The notes beneath the pieces were generated by a model that saw nothing but the letters and a program-made list of their open reading frames with translations, searched no databases and was not told where the DNA came from. From positions 124,001 through 188,000 of the forward strand of contig JASJCM010000009.1 of the NCBI GenBank assembly GCA_030065985.1: DNA of 64,000 nt, in the 5' to 3' direction. Positions 1,156-48,560 of this stretch are shown here, piece by piece (position 1 is the stretch's first letter; every line of letters begins with the position of its first letter). The DNA is from Woeseiaceae bacterium (lineage in GTDB: Bacteria; Pseudomonadota; Gammaproteobacteria; Steroidobacterales; Woeseiaceae). The position numbers and the translations under genes were made by a program.

Positions 1156-2142
1156 ATGCGCGCTCATGCCGACAAGGCCGCGGCGAGGGTTGCCGTAGCA
1201 CCGATGATGGACTGGACCGACCGGCATTGCCGGTATTTCATGCGCCTGATAAGTCCGTCTGCGCTGCTGTATACGGAAATGGTAACGGCGGCCGCGATCG
1301 TGCACGGCGACGCGGAGCGTTTCCTGCGTTACAACGACGAAGAGCACCCTGTTGCGCTGCAGCTTGGCGGCAGCGATCCGGACTGGATGGCCAAAGCCAC
1401 GTCGATCGCATCGAGCTTTGGCTACGACGAGATCAACATCAATGTTGGTTGCCCCAGCGACCGCGTGCAGAGCGGCCAGTTTGGTGCTTGCCTGATGGCG
1501 AACCCCGAGCTCGTTGCAACCTGCTTTAAGGCGATGCAGGCAGAAACGGATATACCGGTGACGGTCAAATCGCGCATCGGTATCGATGAGCAGGACAGTG
1601 AGGAATTTCTGCGGGCGTTCGTCGAGCCGCTCATCAATGCCGGGTGCCGCAAGTTTATCGTCCATGCACGAATTGCGATTCTCGAGGGCCTGAGTCCCAA
1701 GGAGAATCGCACCATCCCGCCGCTCAACTACGAACGCGTGTACGCGCTCAAGCGTGACTTTTCCGAGCTGGAGGTCGTCATCAATGGCGGCTTCACGGAT
1801 TTAACGGGTATCGACGAGGCCCTCAGGAATGTGGACGGGGTCATGATAGGCCGGCAGGCCTATCATCAGCCTTATTTCCTGGCCGAGCTCGAGGCGCATC
1901 TCAATGGCGAATGGTCGCCGGCGCCGCGCGCAGCGGTCGTCGAGCGCATGCTGCCGTACATTGATCGGGAAATCGCAAACGGCGCGTCGCTAAACAGTAT
2001 TTCACGCCACATGCTGGGGCTGTTCGCCGGACAGCCGGGCGCGCGAGCGTGGCGTCGTTACATAAGCGAGCACGCGCATCGACCGGGTGCCGGCAGCGAG
2101 GTGCTTGTCAATGCACTAAATGCTATGCCTCACGCGGCTTAG
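1156..2142 (+). CDS. dusA: tRNA-dihydrouridine(20/20a) synthase DusA
   Basis: FMN-dependent enzyme that reduces uridines 20 and 20a in the tRNA D-loop. The 328-residue length is normal for the family. The N-terminus APMMDWTDRHCRYF is the DusA signature and separates it from DusB and DusC. The active-site cysteine is Cys99 in NVGCPSDRVQSGQFGACL, where the general acid is expected. The TIM-barrel end VMIGRQAYHQPY binds the FMN phosphate in relatives. The ATG at 1156 is chosen because it directly precedes the conserved APMMDWT start. Function is assigned by family. Confidence 0.95.
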   Translation: MRAHADKAAARVAVAPMMDWTDRHCRYFMRLISPSALLYTEMVTAAAIVHGDAERFLRYNDEEHPVALQLGGSDPDWMAKATSIASSFGYDEININVGCPSDRVQSGQFGACLMANPELVATCFKAMQAETDIPVTVKSRIGIDEQDSEEFLRAFVEPLINAGCRKFIVHARIAILEGLSPKENRTIPPLNYERVYALKRDFSELEVVINGGFTDLTGIDEALRNVDGVMIGRQAYHQPYFLAELEAHLNGEWSPAPRAAVVERMLPYIDREIANGASLNSISRHMLGLFAGQPGARAWRRYISEHAHRPGAGSEVLVNALNAMPHAA

Positions 2143-2192
2143 CCGGATACAATGCACGGCCCGCCCAAGAACAACAGGATCCAGCAGGGAAC

Positions 2193-3017
2193 ATGAGCGC
2201 CAAATCCGCCAGCAAACAGCCGACGATGGCCGAACAGGCCGACATTCATGAGCTCTACGAGCTCTCCGTCCAGAATGTCGAGAACGAAATCGAGTTTTTG
2301 CAGACGACCTTTCAGTCGCTGACCGGCCGCACAGCCTACCTGTTCCGCGAGGATTTCTGCGGAACGGCCAGTGCATCGTGTCAGTGGGTACGGCAAGGCG
2401 AGGAATTCCAGGCCATCGGTGTCGACATCGACCCCTCGGTGCTCGAGTGGGGCAGGGAGCATCGCGTTGGCAAACTCGACACGCAGGATCGCACGCGCGT
2501 CAGCCTGATCGAATCGGATGTCATGAATGTCGAGACGCCGAAGGTCGATTTGCTCGCCGCATTCAATTTCAGCTACTTCATCTTCAATACGCGCGACCAG
2601 CTGCGGGCCTATTTCCAACGCGCTTACGATGCGCTCAAAGACGATGGCGTGTTCTTCTGCGACATGTTCGGTGGCCCCGAGGCGCAGGAAGAGACGCGCG
2701 AGAAGACCAAGCACAAGAAACACGGCTTTACGTACATCTGGCACCAGGCGGAATTCCACCCCGTAACCAACTATATTCGCTGCCACATTCACTTCAAGTT
2801 CAAGGATGGCTCGAAGCTCAAGAAGGCGTTTACGTACGAATGGCGCTTGTGGTCTGCACCCGAGATTCGGGAGCTGTTACTCGAGGCTGGTTTCAGCAAA
2901 GCCACCGTCTATTGGGAAGGCGAAGATGAGGATGGCGAAGGCAATGGCGAGTTCACGCCCGACGAGAGAGGCGAGGCTGACCTTGCGTGGATCGCCTATA
3001 TCGTTGCCCAAAAATAA
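2193..3017 (+). CDS. Class I SAM-dependent methyltransferase
   Basis: Predicted soluble 274-residue methyltransferase of unknown substrate. A SAM-binding motif I (EDFCGTA) is followed by an acidic motif II (GVDIDPSVLEWG), a motif near LLAAFNFSYFIF and the late motif FFCDMFGGPEA. These are typical of small-molecule or protein methyltransferases of the Rossmann fold. The frame is open further upstream, but the ATG at 2193 is preferred because it leaves dusA intact and opens a plausible N-terminus (MSAKSASKQPTM). It lies 50 bp after dusA and may be read with it. Nothing identifies the acceptor. Confidence 0.75.
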   Translation: MSAKSASKQPTMAEQADIHELYELSVQNVENEIEFLQTTFQSLTGRTAYLFREDFCGTASASCQWVRQGEEFQAIGVDIDPSVLEWGREHRVGKLDTQDRTRVSLIESDVMNVETPKVDLLAAFNFSYFIFNTRDQLRAYFQRAYDALKDDGVFFCDMFGGPEAQEETREKTKHKKHGFTYIWHQAEFHPVTNYIRCHIHFKFKDGSKLKKAFTYEWRLWSAPEIRELLLEAGFSKATVYWEGEDEDGEGNGEFTPDERGEADLAWIAYIVAQK

Positions 3018-3022
3018 TTGGC

Positions 3023-3040
3023 AATAATAGTAGTATTATT
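3023..3040. other. Short AT-only inverted repeat
   Basis: AATAATA (3023-3029), loop GTAG, TATTATT (3034-3040): a perfect 7-bp stem in the 56-bp gap between the methyltransferase and the cyclase-FHA gene. The AT-only stem is weak and has no T-run, so it is not called a terminator. It could be a protein-binding site. Confidence 0.3.
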
Positions 3041-3073
3041 AGATGCTTGGGCTAAATACTTGTGAGCCGGGTT

Positions 3074-3967
3074 ATGGCAAAGGATCTTGAGGTCGCTATC
3101 GTGTTTGCCGACGTCGTCGGCAGCACGCAGCTGTACGACAAGTTTGGCGATACCAAGGCCAGCGAGACGGTCGCACACTGTCTCGACGTCATGAAAGACG
3201 CGACCTACCAGTTCAGCGGCACGGTCATCAAGACGATCGGCGACGAGGTCATGTCGACCTTCAACAGCGTTGACGAGGCGATGGGTGCGGCCGTCATGAT
3301 GCAGACTCGCGTCACGGCCGAGACCAAGGAAACCGGCATTCCCGTTTCCATTCGCATCGGCTGTCACTACGGGCCGGTCGTGCAGGAACAGAACGACATA
3401 TTCGGGGCCGCCGTGCATACCGCCAACCGCATGACGTCCCAGGCCAAGGCCCGACAGATCGTCATCTCCGGCGGTACGGTTGAGCACATGAGCCCCGAGC
3501 TCCGCAAACAGACGCGTCAGATCGACGTCGCCACCGTGCGCGGGCGCCTCGATGAGGTGGCGTTATACGAGCTCGTCTGGCAGCCCGAAGAGGCGACCAG
3601 CATGTTGCCGACGCTCGAGTGGGAGAACCGCGATCGGCGCGCCTCGAAGTTGTTGCTGAACTTCCGCGATACGACCATCGAGATCTCCGATCAGCGCAAG
3701 TCGATCAACATGGGTCGCGCTGACGACAACGATCTCGTCGTCAAGGGAAATCTGATCTCGCGGATCCACGCGAAAATCGAGATGCGACGCGGCAAGTTCG
3801 TGCTCGTTGACCAAAGTACGAACGGTACTTTCCTGCAGGATGTCCAGGGCAACGAGGTCTTCGTGCGCCGCGATTCGACTGAACTCGGTGGTGAGGGCAC
3901 GATTGGTCTGGGCCGCGCTGAGAAAGCGGGCTCCACGCTCGCGATCTACTACAAGACCATGGAATAA
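3074..3967 (+). CDS. Class III adenylate cyclase fused to an FHA domain
   Basis: Predicted soluble signalling protein of 297 residues. The first ~170 residues form a class III nucleotide cyclase domain: metal-binding aspartates in FADVVGST and GDEVM, the adenine-specifying lysine in IKTIGDE and the adenine-specifying aspartate in NDIFG. The transition-state arginine is present in VHTANRM, but the asparagine usually four residues before it is histidine. A C-terminal FHA domain follows (MGRADDNDLV, SRIHA, STNGTFL), which normally binds phosphothreonine. The product is therefore probably cAMP, perhaps controlled by a Ser/Thr-phosphorylated partner. A GTG at 3062 is an alternative start. A CRP-type site upstream of fleQ in this window gives cAMP a possible local target. 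Confidence 0.8.
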   Translation: MAKDLEVAIVFADVVGSTQLYDKFGDTKASETVAHCLDVMKDATYQFSGTVIKTIGDEVMSTFNSVDEAMGAAVMMQTRVTAETKETGIPVSIRIGCHYGPVVQEQNDIFGAAVHTANRMTSQAKARQIVISGGTVEHMSPELRKQTRQIDVATVRGRLDEVALYELVWQPEEATSMLPTLEWENRDRRASKLLLNFRDTTIEISDQRKSINMGRADDNDLVVKGNLISRIHAKIEMRRGKFVLVDQSTNGTFLQDVQGNEVFVRRDSTELGGEGTIGLGRAEKAGSTLAIYYKTME

Positions 3968-3972
3968 CAAAA

Positions 3973-3994
3973 CAGGCCGCCTCTCGGCGGCCTG
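3973..3994 (-). terminator. Rho-independent terminator of pckG
   Basis: Perfect 9-bp stem CAGGCCGCC / GGCGGCCTG (3973-3981 and 3986-3994) with loop TCTC. Read on the minus strand it is followed by TTTTGTTATT, so it best serves pckG, which ends 28 bp away. On the plus strand the tail CATTCACTCTAAATTTCTCTTT is poorer, but the stem could also end the cyclase-FHA transcript. Confidence 0.75.
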
Positions 3995-4021
3995 CATTCA
4001 CTCTAAATTTCTCTTTAACGA

Positions 4022-5785
4022 TCAGGACGCTTTCGCGAGCTGATCATCGAGCGCGTTCGCGATCACTTGCTGCTGGCGACGCAGCTCCTCGGGAAGCCGA
4101 TCGCCGTAGCTCTCGAGATACTCGAGCACCGACTGCAGCTCGGCGCGCCACTGTTCGGTATCGACGGTCAACAGCTCATCCAGTACCTCGGGAGTGATCT
4201 CGAGCGCGTCCGTGTTCAGGTCTTCGGCATGAGGCAGGTACCCGATCGGCGTCTCGTGGGCGCCGGCGCGGTGTTCGCAGCGCTCGATAATCCACTCGAG
4301 GACGCGCAGGTTTTCACCGAACCCTGGCCACAGGAATTCACCGTCGTCGTTCTGGCGGAACCAGTTGACGTGGAAGATTTTGGGTAGGTGCTCCGACTTC
4401 TCCGGGAACGACAGCCAGTGCTCCCAGTAGTCCGCGAAGTTGTAGCCGCAAAACGGCTTCATCGCCATCGGGTCACGGCGGACGACGCCCACGTCGCCAA
4501 CCATGGCCGCGGTCGTCTCCGACGCGGTGCTGGCGCCGATAAGCACGCCATGGTTCCAGTCCTTGGCCTCGTAGACGAGCGGCGCAACCTGCTTGCGGCG
4601 GCCGCCAAAGACGATTGCTGAGATGGGCACACCTTCGGGTGCATCGGCAAGCTCGGAGTAGCACGGGTTATTCGTTGCTGCCACCGTAAAGCGCGAGTTC
4701 GGATGTGCGGCCGGTCCGTTGGCCGGGTCGTAGTCGCGGCCGCGCCAGTCTTTCGCCGGTTTTCCGACCTTTTTGCCTTCCCACCATGGCTGGTTATCGG
4801 CCGTGGTTGCGACATTCGTGAAGATCGCGTCATGCGTGATCATGTCAAAGGCGTTCTTGTTGGTCTTCTCGTTCGTGCCCGGCACGACACCGAAGTAACC
4901 CGATTCCGGATTGACCGCACGCAGCTTGCCGCCGTCATCCAGATGCAGCCAGGCGATGTCGTCGCCGAGCGTCCAGACCTTCCAGCCCGGCATCGACTCG
5001 GGCGGGATCAGCATCGCGAGATTGGTCTTGCCGCAGGCCGACGGGAAGGCGCAAGCAATAAAGTGCACCGCACCGTCGGGGTTTTCGAGTCCGACGATCA
5101 GCATGTGCTCTGCCAGCCAGCCTTCCTGGCGTCCCTGGTGACTGGCGATACGCAGTGCGTGGCACTTCTTGCCGAGCAGCGCGTTGCCGCCGTAACCCGA
5201 ACCATAGCTCTTGATCGAGAGTTCCTCGGGAAAGTGCATGATGAAACGGCGCTCGGGGTCGAGTTCGCCGGTCGAGTGCAAACCGCGTACAAACGTGCCT
5301 TCGCGTTCGATGCGCTCAAGTGCCTTGCGGCCCATGCGCGTCATGAGTTTCATGTTGACTACGACGTAGGGGCTGTCCGTGATTTCGACGCCGCAACGCG
5401 AGTAGGGCGAATCGATCGGTCCCATGCAGTAGGGGATGACATACATGATGCGACCCTGCATGCAGTTCTCGAACAACGCATCCATCTGCTTGTGGCCGTC
5501 GGCGGGCGGCATCCAGAGGTTGTTGGGTCCGGCGTCGTCCTCTTCGGGCGAGCACACGAAGGTCAGGTGCTCGACGCGTGCCACGTCGTTTGGATCAGAG
5601 AGATGCAGGAAACAGCCCGGATGCGTTTCCTGGTTGAGTTTTTTCAGGGTGCCGGTGGCCAGCATGAACTCGATGAGGTCCTGGTATTCCTCTTTAGAGC
5701 CCGTGCACCAGTGAACGGCTTCGGGTTGGGTATGAGCAGCGACCTGGTCTACCCAGGCCTGCAACGCCTCTAGCTTGCTTGTCAT
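4022..5785 (-). CDS. pckG: Phosphoenolpyruvate carboxykinase (GTP)
   Basis: Converts oxaloacetate and GTP to phosphoenolpyruvate and CO2, the first committed step of gluconeogenesis from C4 acids. The 587-residue length and the P-loop FPSACGKTNLAML (nucleotide-binding lysine near residue 253) are those of the GTP class, not the ATP class found in enterics. Other family stretches are GSGYGGNALLGKKC, WKVWTLGDDIAWL and VFGGRRK. The ATG at 5785 gives the expected N-terminus. It is transcribed alone, against the cyclase gene, and ends at a strong hairpin. Confidence 0.97.
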   Translation of the reverse strand: MTSKLEALQAWVDQVAAHTQPEAVHWCTGSKEEYQDLIEFMLATGTLKKLNQETHPGCFLHLSDPNDVARVEHLTFVCSPEEDDAGPNNLWMPPADGHKQMDALFENCMQGRIMYVIPYCMGPIDSPYSRCGVEITDSPYVVVNMKLMTRMGRKALERIEREGTFVRGLHSTGELDPERRFIMHFPEELSIKSYGSGYGGNALLGKKCHALRIASHQGRQEGWLAEHMLIVGLENPDGAVHFIACAFPSACGKTNLAMLIPPESMPGWKVWTLGDDIAWLHLDDGGKLRAVNPESGYFGVVPGTNEKTNKNAFDMITHDAIFTNVATTADNQPWWEGKKVGKPAKDWRGRDYDPANGPAAHPNSRFTVAATNNPCYSELADAPEGVPISAIVFGGRRKQVAPLVYEAKDWNHGVLIGASTASETTAAMVGDVGVVRRDPMAMKPFCGYNFADYWEHWLSFPEKSEHLPKIFHVNWFRQNDDGEFLWPGFGENLRVLEWIIERCEHRAGAHETPIGYLPHAEDLNTDALEITPEVLDELLTVDTEQWRAELQSVLEYLESYGDRLPEELRRQQQVIANALDDQLAKAS

Positions 5786-5945: not shown

Positions 5946-6767
5946 TTAGTCGCAGAGACGTGCGACGCCGCCTTCGAGCGTCGCTTCGAAACTGTGGTGA
6001 AGATCAAAGCGGCGATGGATCTCGCCGCTGGAAGCGTTGGCGTCGAAATGCCACTCGACAACGTCAATACGATCGCAGTTTCCAGTACCCTGGTTGTTGA
6101 CGAGGGCGAGGACCAGCGTGTGACGCATGGCATCCGGCGCGCTGCCGGCACGCGAGGCAATCACCTTCTTGTGCGAGACATTGAACCATGCGAATTGCCA
6201 AAGGTACTCGGTGAAATCCTGTAGCCGCGCACCGGTTAGTAATGCGGGGTCGATGCGGCCCGCGTAGCCGTCGAGCAGGTTGCGGTCGACACCGTCGCGG
6301 TTCGTGTGCCCGCACTTGAATACGCGAGCAAATCCGGGCGTCGTCGGCGTTGTGATGTTGCCGACGTCCTGTGTGTAGCTAAGCTCGCGAACAATCTCGA
6401 AGTAGCGGTTTGTTTCGATCGAGGTGACGTAGTAGCCGTTGACGGCTCGCGACGCATTATCAGCTTCCTCCCACGCCTGTGCCTCAACCAGATCGTCGGT
6501 GCACAACTCGTAAGACTGTGAGCTGTCGAGTACGTGGTGGATCGTGTAGCTGCCGGCGGTGTCAGAGCGCAAATCGGCGAAGAAGGTATCGGGAACCGTG
6601 TAACCAGGGTCGTAAGCTTTGGCGGCGATCTCTGCATCAGCCGGAATCTGCGGAACCGCGGCGACAGTTGGTGTCGCGGGCTTGGCACTGTCGGCCGATC
6701 CGGATCCGCCACAGGCGGCGGCGAACAGGACGACGAGCGCCAACAGGGCCTGGTGAGAAGTCTTCAT
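5946..6767 (-). CDS. Predicted lipoprotein of unknown function
   Basis: I do not recognise this 273-residue protein. It starts with a type II signal peptide: a short basic end, a hydrophobic run and a lipobox ending LFAAAC at Cys19, followed by a Gly/Ser/Ala-rich linker. It is therefore probably anchored to the outer membrane or periplasmic face. The mature part has Trp/Tyr-rich stretches (YLWQFAWFNVSHKKV) and four cysteines. It lies 70 bp downstream of the CsrA-like gene on the same strand with no clear terminator between, so it may be the last gene of the flgA operon. A flagellar role is not shown by sequence. Confidence 0.6.
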   Translation of the reverse strand: MKTSHQALLALVVLFAAACGGSGSADSAKPATPTVAAVPQIPADAEIAAKAYDPGYTVPDTFFADLRSDTAGSYTIHHVLDSSQSYELCTDDLVEAQAWEEADNASRAVNGYYVTSIETNRYFEIVRELSYTQDVGNITTPTTPGFARVFKCGHTNRDGVDRNLLDGYAGRIDPALLTGARLQDFTEYLWQFAWFNVSHKKVIASRAGSAPDAMRHTLVLALVNNQGTGNCDRIDVVEWHFDANASSGEIHRRFDLHHSFEATLEGGVARLCD

Positions 6768-6837: not shown

Positions 6838-7041
6838 TCAGGCCGCGACCGGGCCTTTGCGCCAGATGCACAACTGCTCGGGTGCCTGGACACCCATTTT
6901 CACGCGGTTGTTATTTGACGAGAAAATCGTGATTTCAATCGGACCGTTGCTGAACAGGTCGGCCAGCGTCATCGACGGGTCGATGCCCTCACCAGGTCTG
7001 ATCTCAATGGATTCTGCGTCACGTCGGCTCACAATCAACAT
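6838..7041 (-). CDS. CsrA-family RNA-binding protein with helix insertion (RsmN/RsmF-like)
   Basis: CsrA proteins bind GGA motifs in mRNA leaders and change translation. The 67-residue product starts MLIVSRRDAESIEI (CsrA strand 1) and ends RVKMGVQAPEQLCIWRK, with the conserved (V/I)GVxAP core. Between them sit about 17 extra residues (GIDPSMTLADLFSNG) that look helical and that ordinary 60-residue CsrA lacks. Pseudomonas RsmN/RsmF, a CsrA with a helix inserted between strands, has the same layout; Arg61 here aligns with its RNA-contacting Arg62. An AAGGAA ribosome-binding site precedes the ATG. It lies 29 bp downstream of flgN in the flgAMN operon, so it would be made under sigma-28 control. 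The family is fairly sure; the targets are unknown. Confidence 0.8.
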   Translation of the reverse strand: MLIVSRRDAESIEIRPGEGIDPSMTLADLFSNGPIEITIFSSNNNRVKMGVQAPEQLCIWRKGPVAA

Positions 7042-7070
7042 AGCTCAGTTTCCTTGCTTCACAATGGGGT

Positions 7071-7562
7071 TCAGGCCTGGGCGAGCGAACTGCGGTCAGC
7101 TTGACCGGATGCGCTGCCGTTGCGGCCGTAGGTATCGGTCCCGGGCGTTACGCCCCGGAGCACGGAGAGACTGGATTCAAACTGTTGCTGGCGCAGGCGA
7201 ATGATTGCGCCGTTGGTCATGTTCAGCGCGCTGCTTTCCGCGGCAATGACCAGCAGGTGCTCCCAGCGACTGTTAATCGCGTCTTCCTCATCGCACCAGT
7301 CGATGAGTTCCTGCATTTGTTCGGCGGCACTCGTGAAGCCGGACTTCTCGCACAAGTCGATGCGACGGGTGTCGAGTGCCTGGAGGTTTTCAACGCACGC
7401 ACTCTTGCCGTCGACGGCCGCCTGCAAGGCATCCATATCCTGGGCTTCGAGGGCTTTGCGTTCCTCCTGCAGGGATTCCTTCAGTCCGAGCGCATAGAAG
7501 ATACTGTCGCCAATAATCTCGACAGCTTGCGCACGAACGTCAGCGGGAGCGGGGTGGCTCAT
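7071..7562 (-). CDS. flgN: Flagellar export chaperone FlgN
   Basis: FlgN is the cytosolic chaperone for the hook-filament junction proteins FlgK and FlgL and delivers them to the FlhA/FlhB export gate. The 163-residue product is almost entirely helical, with a heptad-like middle (LKESLQEERKALEAQDMDAL) and a polar Gly/Ser/Asn-rich tail. Length and fold fit FlgN, and the place directly after flgM (2-bp gap) is the standard one. Sequence identity in this family is low, so the neighbours carry much of the call. Confidence 0.88.
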   Translation of the reverse strand: MSHPAPADVRAQAVEIIGDSIFYALGLKESLQEERKALEAQDMDALQAAVDGKSACVENLQALDTRRIDLCEKSGFTSAAEQMQELIDWCDEEDAINSRWEHLLVIAAESSALNMTNGAIIRLRQQQFESSLSVLRGVTPGTDTYGRNGSASGQADRSSLAQA

Positions 7563-7564
7563 GA

Positions 7565-7891
7565 TCAGTCACCCAGCGAGCGATCGAGGCGAATCATAGC
7601 CTCGGCGATAGCGTCGGCGTCGATCTGGTAATTGCCATTCTCGATAGCCGACTTGATCTCGGCTACGCGTCCGGCGTCGACAGCGGGCAGGCTCGCGAGT
7701 GACTTGTCGAGTCGCTCGAGGAGCTTGGCGCTGTTCGTCAGGTTGACCGTATCACCGGCCGACGCGGCTCCAGGGGCCTTCTCGGGCGCCGCGGCTTCCG
7801 CGGAGACCTTGCTCGTCGTACGGGTCTCGTCGACCTTGTTGCCGATTTTCCCCAGTGTTCCCTGATCCATCGGACCAATCCTGTTTGTCAT
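7565..7891 (-). CDS. flgM: Anti-sigma-28 factor FlgM
   Basis: FlgM binds FliA and keeps it inactive until the hook-basal body is complete and FlgM is exported. The 108-residue product has a disordered, Ala/Ser/Thr-rich N-terminal half, then VNLTNSAKLLERLDKSLASL and a C-terminal helix pair (VAEIKSAIENGNYQIDADAI) that is the FliA-binding signature. It lies between flgA and flgN. The whole unit is preceded by a strong sigma-28 element at 8962-8988, so FlgM appears to be made under the factor it inhibits. Confidence 0.95.
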   Translation of the reverse strand: MTNRIGPMDQGTLGKIGNKVDETRTTSKVSAEAAAPEKAPGAASAGDTVNLTNSAKLLERLDKSLASLPAVDAGRVAEIKSAIENGNYQIDADAIAEAMIRLDRSLGD

Positions 7892-7903: not shown

Positions 7904-8761
7904 TCAACGATCATTGTTGCTAAGCCTAATATCGGCTATGGATGGCGATACTTTAGGCGTTGCGTGAAAAAAACCGGTAGCTGCGGGAAGCAGCACCTCG
8001 ACGTGTTCGCGGGAGCGGACGATACCTTCCACAACCCGCCCGGAATTCAGGTTCTGAACCCGGATTCGCTGGTTTAATGCCCCATCCATCAAGGCCTTAC
8101 CGCTCATGCGGACGGCAATTCCGCCGCCCGAGGCGATAATGGTGACTGTCTGGCCGCGGCGCACCGCCGCATCCGCCTCGAGCATCGAGGGGGTCAGCAT
8201 GCGACCGGCAATGAGCTGATATTTCAATTTCTGGCCCACCAGGGACGCCGGGTCGCTGATGTAACCGGATAAGAGTCGCGAAACGTTCCGCGGTTCGACG
8301 TCGAAATCGTTGGCTGTCAGCACGTGTCCGCGCGGCAGGGTGCGCTTCGCAATGAGGACATCCGCAGTCACGACTACGTCGACCGGCACATAGAGCTTCC
8401 AGGGCTTGCTGCCTGAACAACGCACGCCGACCACGGTGCGTGCCGAGATCTTCGCGCCGGGCCGCAGGAAGGCTTCAAGCGGGCGGTCGCATCGTGCCAG
8501 TCGGTGGCGTGGGTCAAGGGTTGCGGCTTGCGCCGTCGTGCGGTTGGCCGACTCGCCGATGCGCTGCTGCAGGTAATCCTCCGCCGCGGCGGCGATTTCG
8601 GCCGTCGACTGCCACGCGGCGTCATCCGCGGATGCGCTGCCGAAGGCTAAGGCGAGGACAACCATCAACCGTGCCCGACGCGTCGGTCGTGCGTCGATTT
8701 CACGTCGTCGCAGCGATCGCGGCGTCAATTTCCTGACGGATTCCAAGCTGTTTCTCACCAT
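7904..8761 (-). CDS. flgA: Flagellar P-ring assembly chaperone FlgA
   Basis: Periplasmic chaperone for FlgI during P-ring assembly. The 285-residue product has a basic N-terminal stretch, a hydrophobic segment (MVVLALAFGSASA, about residues 32-44) that serves as signal peptide, and a C-terminal SAF domain (TLPRGHVLTANDF, GRMLTPSML, GGIAVRMSGKALMDG). The start at 8761 is kept because AGGA lies just upstream; it gives an unusually long n-region of about 30 residues, and the ATG beginning MVVLAL has no ribosome-binding site. First gene of the flgA-flgM-flgN-csrA operon. Confidence 0.93.
   Translation of the reverse strand: MVRNSLESVRKLTPRSLRRREIDARPTRRARLMVVLALAFGSASADDAAWQSTAEIAAAAEDYLQQRIGESANRTTAQAATLDPRHRLARCDRPLEAFLRPGAKISARTVVGVRCSGSKPWKLYVPVDVVVTADVLIAKRTLPRGHVLTANDFDVEPRNVSRLLSGYISDPASLVGQKLKYQLIAGRMLTPSMLEADAAVRRGQTVTIIASGGGIAVRMSGKALMDGALNQRIRVQNLNSGRVVEGIVRSREHVEVLLPAATGFFHATPKVSPSIADIRLSNNDR
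8724..8737. promoter_or_regulatory. GTC-N8-GAC motif (possible FleQ site)
   Basis: GTCAATTTCCTGAC inside the first codons of flgA. It matches the GTC-N8-GAC pattern seen near the fleS and fliL sigma-54 promoters. It is about 270 bp from the flgB promoter and lies in coding sequence, so it is the weakest member of the set. Confidence 0.3.
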
Positions 8762-8961: not shown

Positions 8962-8988
8962 TTATCGGCTGCTATTGCGAAGGCTTTA
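8962..8988 (-). promoter_or_regulatory. Sigma-28 promoter of flgA-flgM-flgN-csrA
   Basis: On the minus strand: TAAA (8988-8985), exactly 15 bp, then GCCGATAA (8969-8962), a perfect match to the enterobacterial sigma-28 consensus. The transcript would start near 8955, leaving an untranslated leader of about 190 nt before flgA. It makes FlgM production FliA-dependent. It lies back to back with the flgB sigma-54 promoter, 20 bp apart. No gene is seen in the rest of 8762-9059. Confidence 0.88.
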
Positions 8989-15221: not shown

Positions 15222-16100
15222 ATGACCGCGGCAATCGGCGATTTCAATCAATACACAGGCATGCGCGCCGCCGCGGAGCGCAACGATCCTGAGGTATTGC
15301 GCGAGGTCGCAAACCAGTTCGAGGCATTGTTCGTCCAGCAGATGCTCAAGAGTATGCGCGATGCATCGCTTGGCGATCCTCTGCTCGGCAATAGCGACCA
15401 GCACGACATGTACCAGGAGATGATGGACCAGCAGCTCGCCATGGAAATGTCGAGCGGCAAGGGCATCGGTCTCGCAGACATGCTTGTGCGTCAGCTCGGT
15501 GGCGAAGCGGCGGCCAAGCTGGCACCGCCTGACCGCGATTTCCGTTTGCCGAGCAGCGCTGCCAATAACTGGAAAGATCCAGACAGTTTCGCCAGGGATG
15601 TCTGGCCGCACGCCGAGCGTGCCGGCAAACGGCTTGGCGTAGCGCCTGAAGCCATTCTTGCGCAGGCCGCACTCGAAACCGGCTGGGGCAAGCACGTCAT
15701 GCCCGACAGGAAGGGCGGCAACAGCTTCAACCTGTTTGGTATCAAGGCCGGCTCGTCGTGGAATGGTGATATGGCGACACGGCGTACGCTCGAATTCGAG
15801 AACGGCGTCCCGCATTACGAGCGCGCGAGTTTCCGCGCGTACCAGGACGTTGCGTCGACGATGGAGGATTACACGGCGTTTCTGGCCGATAACCCACGTT
15901 ATGAGAAGGTCGTTGGTAACGGCAACGACACCGGCGCATTTGCGGATGCACTGCAAGAAAGTGGCTACGCCACCGATCCGCAGTACGCGCAGAAGCTGAA
16001 GAACATCATTGAGAGCCCGACGATGCAACGCGTCCTGTCGGGGTTAAAGAAATCTGCTGCGACGCCGATAGCGAGTGGGCTGTCGGCACATGCGCAGTGA
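15222..16100 (+). CDS. flgJ: Bifunctional rod cap and peptidoglycan hydrolase FlgJ
   Basis: The N-terminal half caps the growing rod; the C-terminal half cuts a hole in peptidoglycan. The 292-residue product has the rod-binding block FEALFVQQMLKSMRDAS (about residues 31-47) and a glucosaminidase-type domain from about 120 with the likely catalytic Glu152 in ALETGWGKH, followed by FNLFGIKAG. Both halves are present, as in Pseudomonas and Salmonella. The last part of the gene also holds a sigma-28 promoter for flgK. Confidence 0.96.
   Translation: MTAAIGDFNQYTGMRAAAERNDPEVLREVANQFEALFVQQMLKSMRDASLGDPLLGNSDQHDMYQEMMDQQLAMEMSSGKGIGLADMLVRQLGGEAAAKLAPPDRDFRLPSSAANNWKDPDSFARDVWPHAERAGKRLGVAPEAILAQAALETGWGKHVMPDRKGGNSFNLFGIKAGSSWNGDMATRRTLEFENGVPHYERASFRAYQDVASTMEDYTAFLADNPRYEKVVGNGNDTGAFADALQESGYATDPQYAQKLKNIIESPTMQRVLSGLKKSAATPIASGLSAHAQ
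16045..16071 (+). promoter_or_regulatory. Sigma-28 promoter of flgK-flgL inside flgJ
   Basis: TAAA (16045-16048), 15 bp, GCCGATAG (16064-16071): 7 of 8 at the -10 and the exact spacing. The transcript would start near 16078, inside the last codons of flgJ and 52 bp before flgK. It would make the hook-filament junction genes FliA-dependent in addition to read-through from flgB. Confidence 0.8.
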
Positions 16101-19310: not shown

Positions 19311-19337
19311 TAAAGGTCCTCTCCTCCTGACCGATAA
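19311..19337 (+). promoter_or_regulatory. Sigma-28 promoter of fliC
   Basis: TAAA (19311-19314), exactly 15 bp, ACCGATAA (19330-19337): 7 of 8 at the -10. The start is expected near 19344, giving a leader of about 96 nt. Another TAAA at 19266 lacks a matching -10 and was set aside. Confidence 0.88.
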
Positions 19338-19371
19338 CTCCACTGAACGGTGGTCATGAATGGATTTCGCG

Positions 19372-19420
19372 GCCATTTAAATGGCTTCCGGTAGCTCTTG
19401 CGAGACCGGGGTAATTTTTT
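19372..19420 (+). promoter_or_regulatory. Structured fliC leader
   Basis: Within the predicted untranslated leader lie a perfect 14-bp palindrome GCCATTTAAATGGC (19372-19385), then a hairpin with stems CCGGT/ACCGG and CTC/GAG (19388-19409), then seven T residues (19414-19420) just before the ribosome-binding site CAGGAG. The hairpin plus T-run resembles an attenuator but is 4 nt apart. Two GGA triplets, one in the ribosome-binding site, are possible CsrA contacts. Confidence 0.45.
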
Positions 19421-19439
19421 TACATCAGGAGTAAAAGCA

Positions 19440-20585
19440 ATGGCACAGACGATCAATACGAACGTCGCGTCGCTTAACGCACAGCGTAACCTGAGCCGCT
19501 CACAGGGCATGATGAACACCGCCCTCGAGCGTCTTTCCACGGGTCTGCGAATCAACAGTGCGAAAGATGACGCAGCAGGTCTCGCGATTTCCGAGCGTTT
19601 CACGACGCAGATTCGCGGCCTGAATCAGGCTGTCCGTAACGCTTCGGACGGCATTTCCCTCGCGCAGACTACGGAAAGCGCACTTGGTGAGTTGACCAAC
19701 AACCTGCAGCGCATTCGTGAGCTGGCAGTACAGTCGGTCAACGCAACGAACTCGGCCTCTGATCGCGCCGCACTGAACGCAGAAGTTCAGGAGCGTATCG
19801 CGGAAGTCGATCGTATCGCGAAGCAGACCAACTTCAACGGCGTTAAGGTCCTTGACGGATCCTTCGGCACGGCAACCTTCCAGGTTGGTGCCAACGTTGG
19901 TGAGACGATTTCAGTCTCTCTGACCACGGATGTGACGGCCGGCGCTGTCGGCACGATCAATACCGTGACCGGTGTCGCGGACGCGCTCGACACGACTACG
20001 GCTCCGGGCACTGCTGCTACCGTATTGACGTTCACGCCCGCAGTAGGCGCCGCGTCCACGGTAGACATTGCTGCCGGTTCTACGGTGCAAGAAGCCGCGG
20101 ATGCGATTAACGGTGCAAATATTAGTGGTGTTGCGGCCTTCGTCAATGACAACGGTTTCATTCAAATCATCTCTGACGAGCCGGGCGTTGCGATTACCGA
20201 AGCTGCGGTAGGCGGTAACACCACCGGACTCGCCGGTGTAACGACAGCGGCCGAGACGGCCAGCGCGACCACGACGCTTGCGGGCGTGGGTGTTGACACA
20301 GTGAGCAACGCGAACTTCGCAGTTGCGCGTGTCGACTCGGCGCTGACGGCTGTTAACGGCTTGCGCGGTAACCTGGGTGCTATCCAGAACCGCTTCGAGT
20401 CGACGATCGTCAACCTGCAGACGGTCAGTGAAAACCTGTCGGCCTCTCGCGGTCGTATCCAGGACGCTGACTTCGCTGCCGAGACGGCCGCATTGACCAA
20501 GGCACAGATCCTGCAGCAGGCCGGCGTAGCCGTACTGTCGCAGGCGAACGCCCAGCCGCAGCTCGCTCTGAGCCTGCTGCAGTAA
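19440..20585 (+). CDS. fliC: Flagellin FliC
   Basis: Filament subunit, 381 residues, the only flagellin in the window. Highly conserved N-terminal D0/D1 region (AQTINTNVASLNAQRNLSRS, STGLRINSAKDDAAGLAIS) and C-terminal region (GRIQDADFAAETAALTKAQI, ending ALSLLQ). The middle 150 residues are a short Ala/Thr/Val-rich variable domain without lysine. The ATG at 19440 follows CAGGAG and gives the usual MAQTINTN start. A strong sigma-28 promoter lies upstream; FliS, two genes downstream, is its chaperone. Confidence 0.98.
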   Translation: MAQTINTNVASLNAQRNLSRSQGMMNTALERLSTGLRINSAKDDAAGLAISERFTTQIRGLNQAVRNASDGISLAQTTESALGELTNNLQRIRELAVQSVNATNSASDRAALNAEVQERIAEVDRIAKQTNFNGVKVLDGSFGTATFQVGANVGETISVSLTTDVTAGAVGTINTVTGVADALDTTTAPGTAATVLTFTPAVGAASTVDIAAGSTVQEAADAINGANISGVAAFVNDNGFIQIISDEPGVAITEAAVGGNTTGLAGVTTAAETASATTTLAGVGVDTVSNANFAVARVDSALTAVNGLRGNLGAIQNRFESTIVNLQTVSENLSASRGRIQDADFAAETAALTKAQILQQAGVAVLSQANAQPQLALSLLQ

Positions 20586-48533: not shown

Positions 48534-48560
48534 ATATCGGCCGAAACGGTCTGCGCTTTA
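48534..48560 (-). promoter_or_regulatory. Sigma-28 promoter of pomA-pomB-pilZ
   Basis: On the minus strand TAAA (48560-48557), 15 bp, GCCGATAT (48541-48534), 7 of 8 at the -10. The TAAA contains the TAA stop of the upstream diguanylate cyclase gene. The transcript would start near 48527, 40 nt before pomA. Confidence 0.83.

Follow-up and report, generated by a model that had tools for sequence, protein, structure and literature searches.

A flagellum-linked CsrA-family gene of RsmN/RsmF-type layout in a late flagellar operon of Woeseiaceae, with a candidate binding stretch in the fliC leader

The DNA analysed here (64,000 nucleotides of a Woeseiaceae contig, hereafter the window) carries on its minus strand a run of flagellar genes in the order flgA-flgM-flgN-csrA, with csrA the last of them. 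These genes encode the P-ring chaperone FlgA (7904–8761; PF13144, 125.2 bits), the anti-sigma-28 factor FlgM (7565–7891; PF04316, 65.5 bits; NCBIfam FlgM, 76.3 bits), the export chaperone FlgN (7071–7562; PF05130, 81.1 bits) and a 67-residue protein of the CsrA family (6838–7041), whose ATG lies 29 bases beyond the flgN stop. A first-pass annotation of the DNA had correctly given the coordinates of this small gene and its position after flgN. The protein's score against Pfam CsrA (PF02599, 37.6 bits) exceeds the curated cut-off of 27. Synonymous codon differences outnumber nonsynonymous ones in every one of eight pairwise comparisons with orthologues (raw counts from 15:2 to 16:9), indicating purifying selection, and in Woeseiaceae loci holding all four genes the protein is more conserved than FlgN, FlgM and FlgA (except at locus L016, where FlgM and FlgA are closer). 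Its nearest named relatives come from Woeseiaceae metagenome assemblies, the best at 97% protein identity. We rejected a spurious open reading frame on the grounds of purifying selection and synteny, and a mobile-element gene given the stable synteny, the lack of any plasmid match and the fact that none of 19 stretches of viral contigs matching a pattern for the gene was confirmed. Between csrA and the PEP carboxykinase genes lies an open reading frame for a probable lipoprotein of 273 residues (5946–6767, minus strand) that matches no Pfam family and is kept in many Woeseiaceae loci.

The protein shares with canonical CsrA/RsmA its Pfam family, the conserved first and last strands and the RNA-contact arginine, but differs in three respects. 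Its score against the NCBIfam csrA equivalog TIGR00202 (33.4 bits) falls below the cut-off of 70.1, which places it outside canonical CsrA; alignment to the canonical CsrA of the same genome (encoded on another contig) reveals an insert of 17 residues between strands 2 and 3; and the C-terminal helix is absent, the chain stopping 6 residues past Arg61 with no helix predicted there. In phmmer searches of PDB chains, RsmN/RsmF (4k59 and 4kji) matched weakly (E 0.2–0.25) and canonical CsrAs similarly (E 0.16–0.8), while an alignment running through the insert (residues 2–61) was found for the RsmF and RsmN chains only, the canonical CsrAs covering strands 3–5. In this alignment Arg61 falls on Arg62 of RsmN/RsmF (numbering of PMC3791407), and its column is invariant across the 19 rows of one alignment and the 54 of another, bearing out the earlier view that the RNA-contact arginine is kept. 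When the 11 RNA contacts named for RsmN (PMC3791407) are mapped onto the protein in the same way, seven are identical (Leu2, Ile3, Ser5, Arg7, Ala53, Ile59 and Arg61), three conservative (Val4, Lys48 and Leu57) and one changed, Arg56 of RsmN being replaced by Glu55. The RsmN patch residues Leu59, Val61 and Leu65 correspond to Cys58, Trp60 and Pro64.

An AlphaFold2 model of the single chain (54 aligned sequences), of medium confidence (mean pLDDT 69, pTM 0.43), predicts strands at residues 11–16, 36–41, 47–52 and 57–62 and a helix at 26–32, within the insert between strands 2 and 3. The first-pass annotation had described about 17 helical residues at this position; that number fits the insert as a whole, while the predicted helix occupies residues 26–32 only. 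The top four Foldseek matches in the PDB were all RsmN/RsmF chains (two of 4kji, and 4k59 and 4krw; probability 0.99–1.00, TMq 0.58–0.62), with weak E-values (0.03–0.09, none below 0.001), and an RsmA chain matched poorly (probability 0.07, TMq 0.29). Alignment with VIA to the entries 4kji, 4k59 and 4krw gave Z-scores of 5.0, 4.7 and 4.6, middling by the tool's own note, and rmsd values of 2.9–3.5 over 57–59 residues, the highest Z-score going with an rmsd of 2.9 over 57. An ordinary CsrA carrying a mere loop, the outcome that would have told against the RsmN/RsmF-type layout proposed at first, did not appear, and we rejected it since Foldseek favours the RsmN/RsmF chains for this medium-confidence single-chain model. 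Compared with RsmN/RsmF of Pseudomonas aeruginosa (4kji, 4k59, 4krw; PMC3791407), the protein thus has the same predicted helix-bearing insert, no C-terminal helix, the key arginine and a collinear alignment; it differs in its low structure-aligned identity (21–30%) and in being encoded behind flgN after a sigma-28 promoter. Judged from its sequence and the predicted fold, the gene is a flagellum-linked member of the CsrA family with an RsmN/RsmF-type layout, located in the late flagellar operon of Woeseiaceae.

A profile of the RsmN-type protein (cut-off 1e-6) matched 62 of 396 genomes sampled from the order, the window's own included. FlgN was present in 198 of these 396 genomes (cut-off 1e-3) and in all carriers but one (61/62; the exception is G366), a co-occurrence with a Fisher p of 1e-19 when kinship between genomes is ignored. 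The gene lies directly behind flgN in 55 of the 62 carriers, spread over three families (31/33 in the window's family, 22/23 in f10 and 2/3 in f6), as would be expected if the arrangement were conserved in relatives, a check that had been named at the outset. It lies away from flgN in G005, G138, G042, G089, G117, G189 and G366, and in G042 a contig ends just past flgN. All sampled carriers within the window's genus have FlgN, and two of its genomes, G021 and G112, have FlgN but no match; in f10 and other families, many genomes with FlgN have no RsmN-type gene. Related RsmN-type copies do stand beside genes of other kinds elsewhere (named by eye), as might be expected of a passenger paralogue that has no flagellar role and sits in this operon by chance; given the linkage to flgN in three families, the purifying selection and the near-strict co-occurrence with FlgN, we consider such a passenger very improbable.

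Across the class, 26 of 369 sampled genomes matched the profile, a total that includes the window's genome and a second member of its genus; a few of the lowest-scoring matches are canonical CsrAs. We looked for flgN in 19 matching genomes outside the order, part of the 24 matching class genomes outside the window's genus; it was found in 15 and was never linked, lying on another contig or, in G526, about 2 Mb away. Linkage to flgN is therefore seen in this order only, and the layout is wider: it extends beyond Pseudomonas to several gammaproteobacterial families with varied gene neighbourhoods. The first-pass annotation called the type little known outside Pseudomonas, which describes the literature well (RsmN homologues are reported to be widespread within Pseudomonas in the parts of PMC3791407 considered here, and those of PMC7366521 treat RsmN within that genus) but not the genomes, in which the layout is common (62/396 in the order and more in the class). 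In titles and abstract openings of the open-access literature, we found no description of an RsmN-type gene in a flagellar operon. Our data thus widen a layout reported for Pseudomonas to several gammaproteobacterial families.

Upstream of flgM, at 7930–7955 (minus strand), lies an exact match to the sigma-28 promoter pattern (TAAA-N15-GCCGATA), one of four exact sites in the window against 0.01 expected. In 52 loci (three of which, L161–L163, have no linked csrA) we scanned the region between positions -160 and +60 relative to the start of the flgM ORF. The best site was exact in 11 loci and had one mismatch in 25, two in 13, three in 2 and four in 1. Shuffled sequences averaged about 4.3 mismatches and came down to 2, their lowest, in some of the loci, so sites with two mismatches are weaker evidence. 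These counts agree with the earlier placement of csrA together with the anti-sigma factor gene behind a conserved sigma-28 promoter. From the gene spacing we infer co-transcription of flgM-flgN-csrA; a terminator scan gave one site against 3.2 expected and so does not define the end of the operon. The three further exact sigma-28 sites lie at 8963–8988 (minus strand), about 200 bases upstream of flgA, at 16045–16070 (plus strand), upstream of flgK, and at 48535–48560 (minus strand), upstream of a motA-like gene (named by eye).

The 29 bases between flgN and csrA (7042–7070, minus strand) contain AAGGAA in the ribosome-binding site, a match to ANGGAN and a possible autoregulatory site. ANGGAN is the motif bound by RsmN and RsmA according to the portions of PMC3791407 drawn on here. 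Among Woeseiaceae loci, ANGGA occurs at -25 to -1 of csrA in 20 of 28 (shuffled mean 4.8, maximum 11), compared with 4 of 43 other genes of the window (starts hand-picked); judged from the leader sequences, it may serve autoregulation or may merely be the usual ribosome site. The enrichment over other window genes would suit an RsmN-type protein that mainly autoregulates translation within flgM-flgN-csrA, with fliC not a direct target. We regard this as unlikely: leaders of orthologues are not independent of one another, AAGGA also commonly serves as a Shine-Dalgarno sequence, ANGGA is inconsistent in flgM leaders (13/28), and a GGA immediately ahead of the start is missing from 14 of 46 leaders of linked csrA genes (13 of these 14 in f10 or f6).

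A second candidate site lies in the leader of fliC, on the plus strand. A sigma-28-like promoter with one mismatch (19311–19337) precedes a 5'-terminal stretch of the fliC mRNA (19349–19377) that was identified by conservation and consensus structure, is drawn as a hairpin and is considered a candidate CsrA/RsmN site. The RNA reads GGUGGUC-A-UGA-AUGGAUU-UCG-C-GGCC, with AUGGAU, a match to ANGGAN, in the loop of the drawn hairpin (19360–19365). The AGGAG Shine-Dalgarno sequence (19427–19431), ahead of the ATG at 19440, provides a second GGA; it is not a strict ANGGA and may be a ribosome site only. In many Woeseiaceae fliC leaders the AUGGAU stretch is followed by a second conserved stretch, CCGG...CCGG (19385–19412, plus strand, in the window).

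We compared 30 Woeseiaceae fliC leaders, four of them from genomes without a linked gene and three with a divergent copy: 22 came from a first set (26 leaders read; the start motif failed in three of 29 loci, L236, L255 and L256, and the second flagellin locus of G024, L257, was omitted) and 8 from a second (of 20 regions sought 3 did not exist; 16 of the remaining 17 loci were examined, and fliC was found in 11). No flagellin match was found in G012. The AUGGA stretch is present in 16 of 23 leaders from genomes with a linked, non-divergent csrA, in none of three with a divergent linked copy, in neither genome with the gene elsewhere (G005 and G138) and in neither genome lacking the gene (G021 and G112), and sits 22 nt (21 in one) after the fliC promoter pattern. 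Any ANGGA within the first 45 nt after the -10 element was found in 18 of the 30 leaders (shuffles: mean 4.1, maximum 10), namely 16/23, 1/3, 0/2 and 1/2 of the same four groups, the last being gene-less G112 with a different ANGGA. By eye, the AUGGA stretch was not seen in six leaders of linked genomes from other families (five f10, one f6).

In the drawn stem, 98.9% of cells across 13 sequences are paired, compared with at most 50.5% when the structure is slid along the alignment, and variation of the stem pairs is no higher than in shuffles. When whole leaders are folded by minimum energy, all of the GGA is unpaired in 7 of the first set's 12 AUGGA leaders; in the window's own fliC leader the GGA is not fully unpaired and the AUGGAU loop is not clean. 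Because folding energies of the fliC leader are no better than shuffles (those of the fliC, flgM, csrA and flgN leaders were not clearly better, z -1.3 to 0.4), the hairpin rests on conservation rather than energy. Rfam gave no match in the window at gathering scores. A covariance model of the stretch, scored on the best 150 of about 2,100–4,200 candidates per genome in 25 genomes, found one match each at E < 0.01 in 18, every one positioned in the fliC leader; 15 of these 18 genomes had contributed to building the model and three (G024, G014 and G028) had not. The G024 stretch was found later, by this model, and in G010, which is part of it, the stem is present with the loop CUGAU in place of UGGAU. 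No match was found at E 2 in G021, G112, G005, G012 or G029. The search left out G020, G025, G099, G081 and G187, linked genomes known to be without the AUGGA loop.

The conserved stretch suggests, from sequence, a candidate site for a CsrA-family protein, and either of the two CsrA proteins could use it. As the same genome encodes a canonical CsrA, the fliC stretch may be a canonical CsrA site, with the RsmN-type protein acting on other late mRNAs or competing for shared RNAs, a possibility of real weight that we nonetheless think doubtful. It agrees with the CsrA-family matches found in 47 of 60 genomes searched (the window's own included), and with the absence of the AUGGA loop from seven of 23 genomes with a linked gene. 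It agrees less well with the absence of the stretch from flagellated genomes that lack the gene (G021 and G112) or have it elsewhere (G005 and G138); the two of these four that were searched for a canonical CsrA, G021 and G005, both have one. This association gave a Fisher p of 0.0017 or 0.037 according to the class assigned to the three divergent copies, but the comparison amounts to few events: on a FlgN/FlgM/FlgA tree (quick method, two long branches) the csrA gene state changes two to three times and the fliC stretch six times, and joint loss of gene and stretch comes down to roughly two independent events (sign test, p at least 0.5). With only two to three gene-state changes on the tree, we dropped correlated loss of the gene and the fliC stretch as a statistical claim.

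Set beside these computed features (family, predicted fold, gene order, promoter match, and the conservation of the gene and the fliC stretch), control of fliC by the RsmN-type protein is plausible from sequence. We tentatively prefer the following reading, to which we give somewhat less than even weight. The csrA gene would encode a CsrA-family protein of RsmN/RsmF fold dedicated to the late flagellar stage; if sigma-28 drives flgM-flgN-csrA, this protein should appear mainly after hook completion and export of FlgM. It would most likely bind RNA at ANGGA, foremost at the AUGGAU in the 5'-terminal part of the sigma-28-driven fliC mRNA and probably also at its own ribosome-binding site, and would limit or time flagellin synthesis in the absence of FliW. 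RNA binding, fliC as the bound RNA and repression as the direction of the effect are inferred parts of this reading. The late-stage feedback on flagellar mRNA suggested in the first-pass annotation thus gains a fitting stretch in the fliC leader but little from the flgM leaders, and the feedback itself would be a matter of interpretation. The combination of a second fold class of CsrA, a sigma-28 promoter ahead of its gene and a matching fliC stretch is a concrete and testable candidate, and suggests a tuning of flagellin production without a FliW partner in marine-sediment Woeseiaceae.

The closest known parallel may be the CsrA-FliW-flagellin circuit of Bacillus subtilis and Campylobacter jejuni, which, in the sections of PMC7652899 and PMC4894983 used here, likewise ties a CsrA-family protein to flagellar genes and has a flagellin leader with two GGA places; C. 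jejuni CsrA is reported to bind two GGA stem-loops in the flaA leader (PMC4894983). Woeseiaceae differ from this circuit in the predicted fold of the CsrA protein, in a second, canonical CsrA, in a fliC site that is predicted, and in the absence of FliW. The last point matches the FliW-free setting envisaged earlier: a search at E 0.1 found FliW in none of 16 genomes (B. subtilis control positive; the window's own genome is 84% complete). The C-terminal CsrA extension bound by FliW is also absent from the 67-residue protein, with its shortened C-terminus. Since the type III chaperone CesT is described as antagonising CsrA (PMC7652899, in part) and flgN adjoins csrA, FlgN might by analogy take the place of FliW: the RsmN-type protein would repress fliC translation at the 5' site while FlgN holds FlgK and FlgL, and FlgN freed after export of the junction proteins would remove it from the RNA. 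We consider this partner switch improbable; if true, flagellin translation would be licensed by completion of the hook-filament junction. The main text of an RsmN target study (PMC6061880) contains no mention of fliC, flagell, flgM or fleQ.

Several RsmN-type genes away from flgN have neighbours of their own. In three Woeseiaceae genomes (L020, L021 and L158) a paralogue adjoins a LysR-like gene (by eye), and in G042 two paralogues (L017 and L022) each have as neighbours a histidine-kinase gene paired with one for a NarL-type response regulator, and a long gene resembling NAD-glutamate dehydrogenase (by eye). The genes of G138 and G005 (L305 and L306) lie by HDOD- or receiver-type signalling-like genes, that of G005 also by pilin-like genes (by eye). 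In two genomes outside the order (L171 and L173) the gene adjoins an rnhB-like gene (by eye). In G366, the f10 genome in which FlgN was not found, the RsmN-type gene (L149, 4001–4192, plus strand) lies behind an open reading frame with a weak FlgM match and near a fliA-like gene (by eye).
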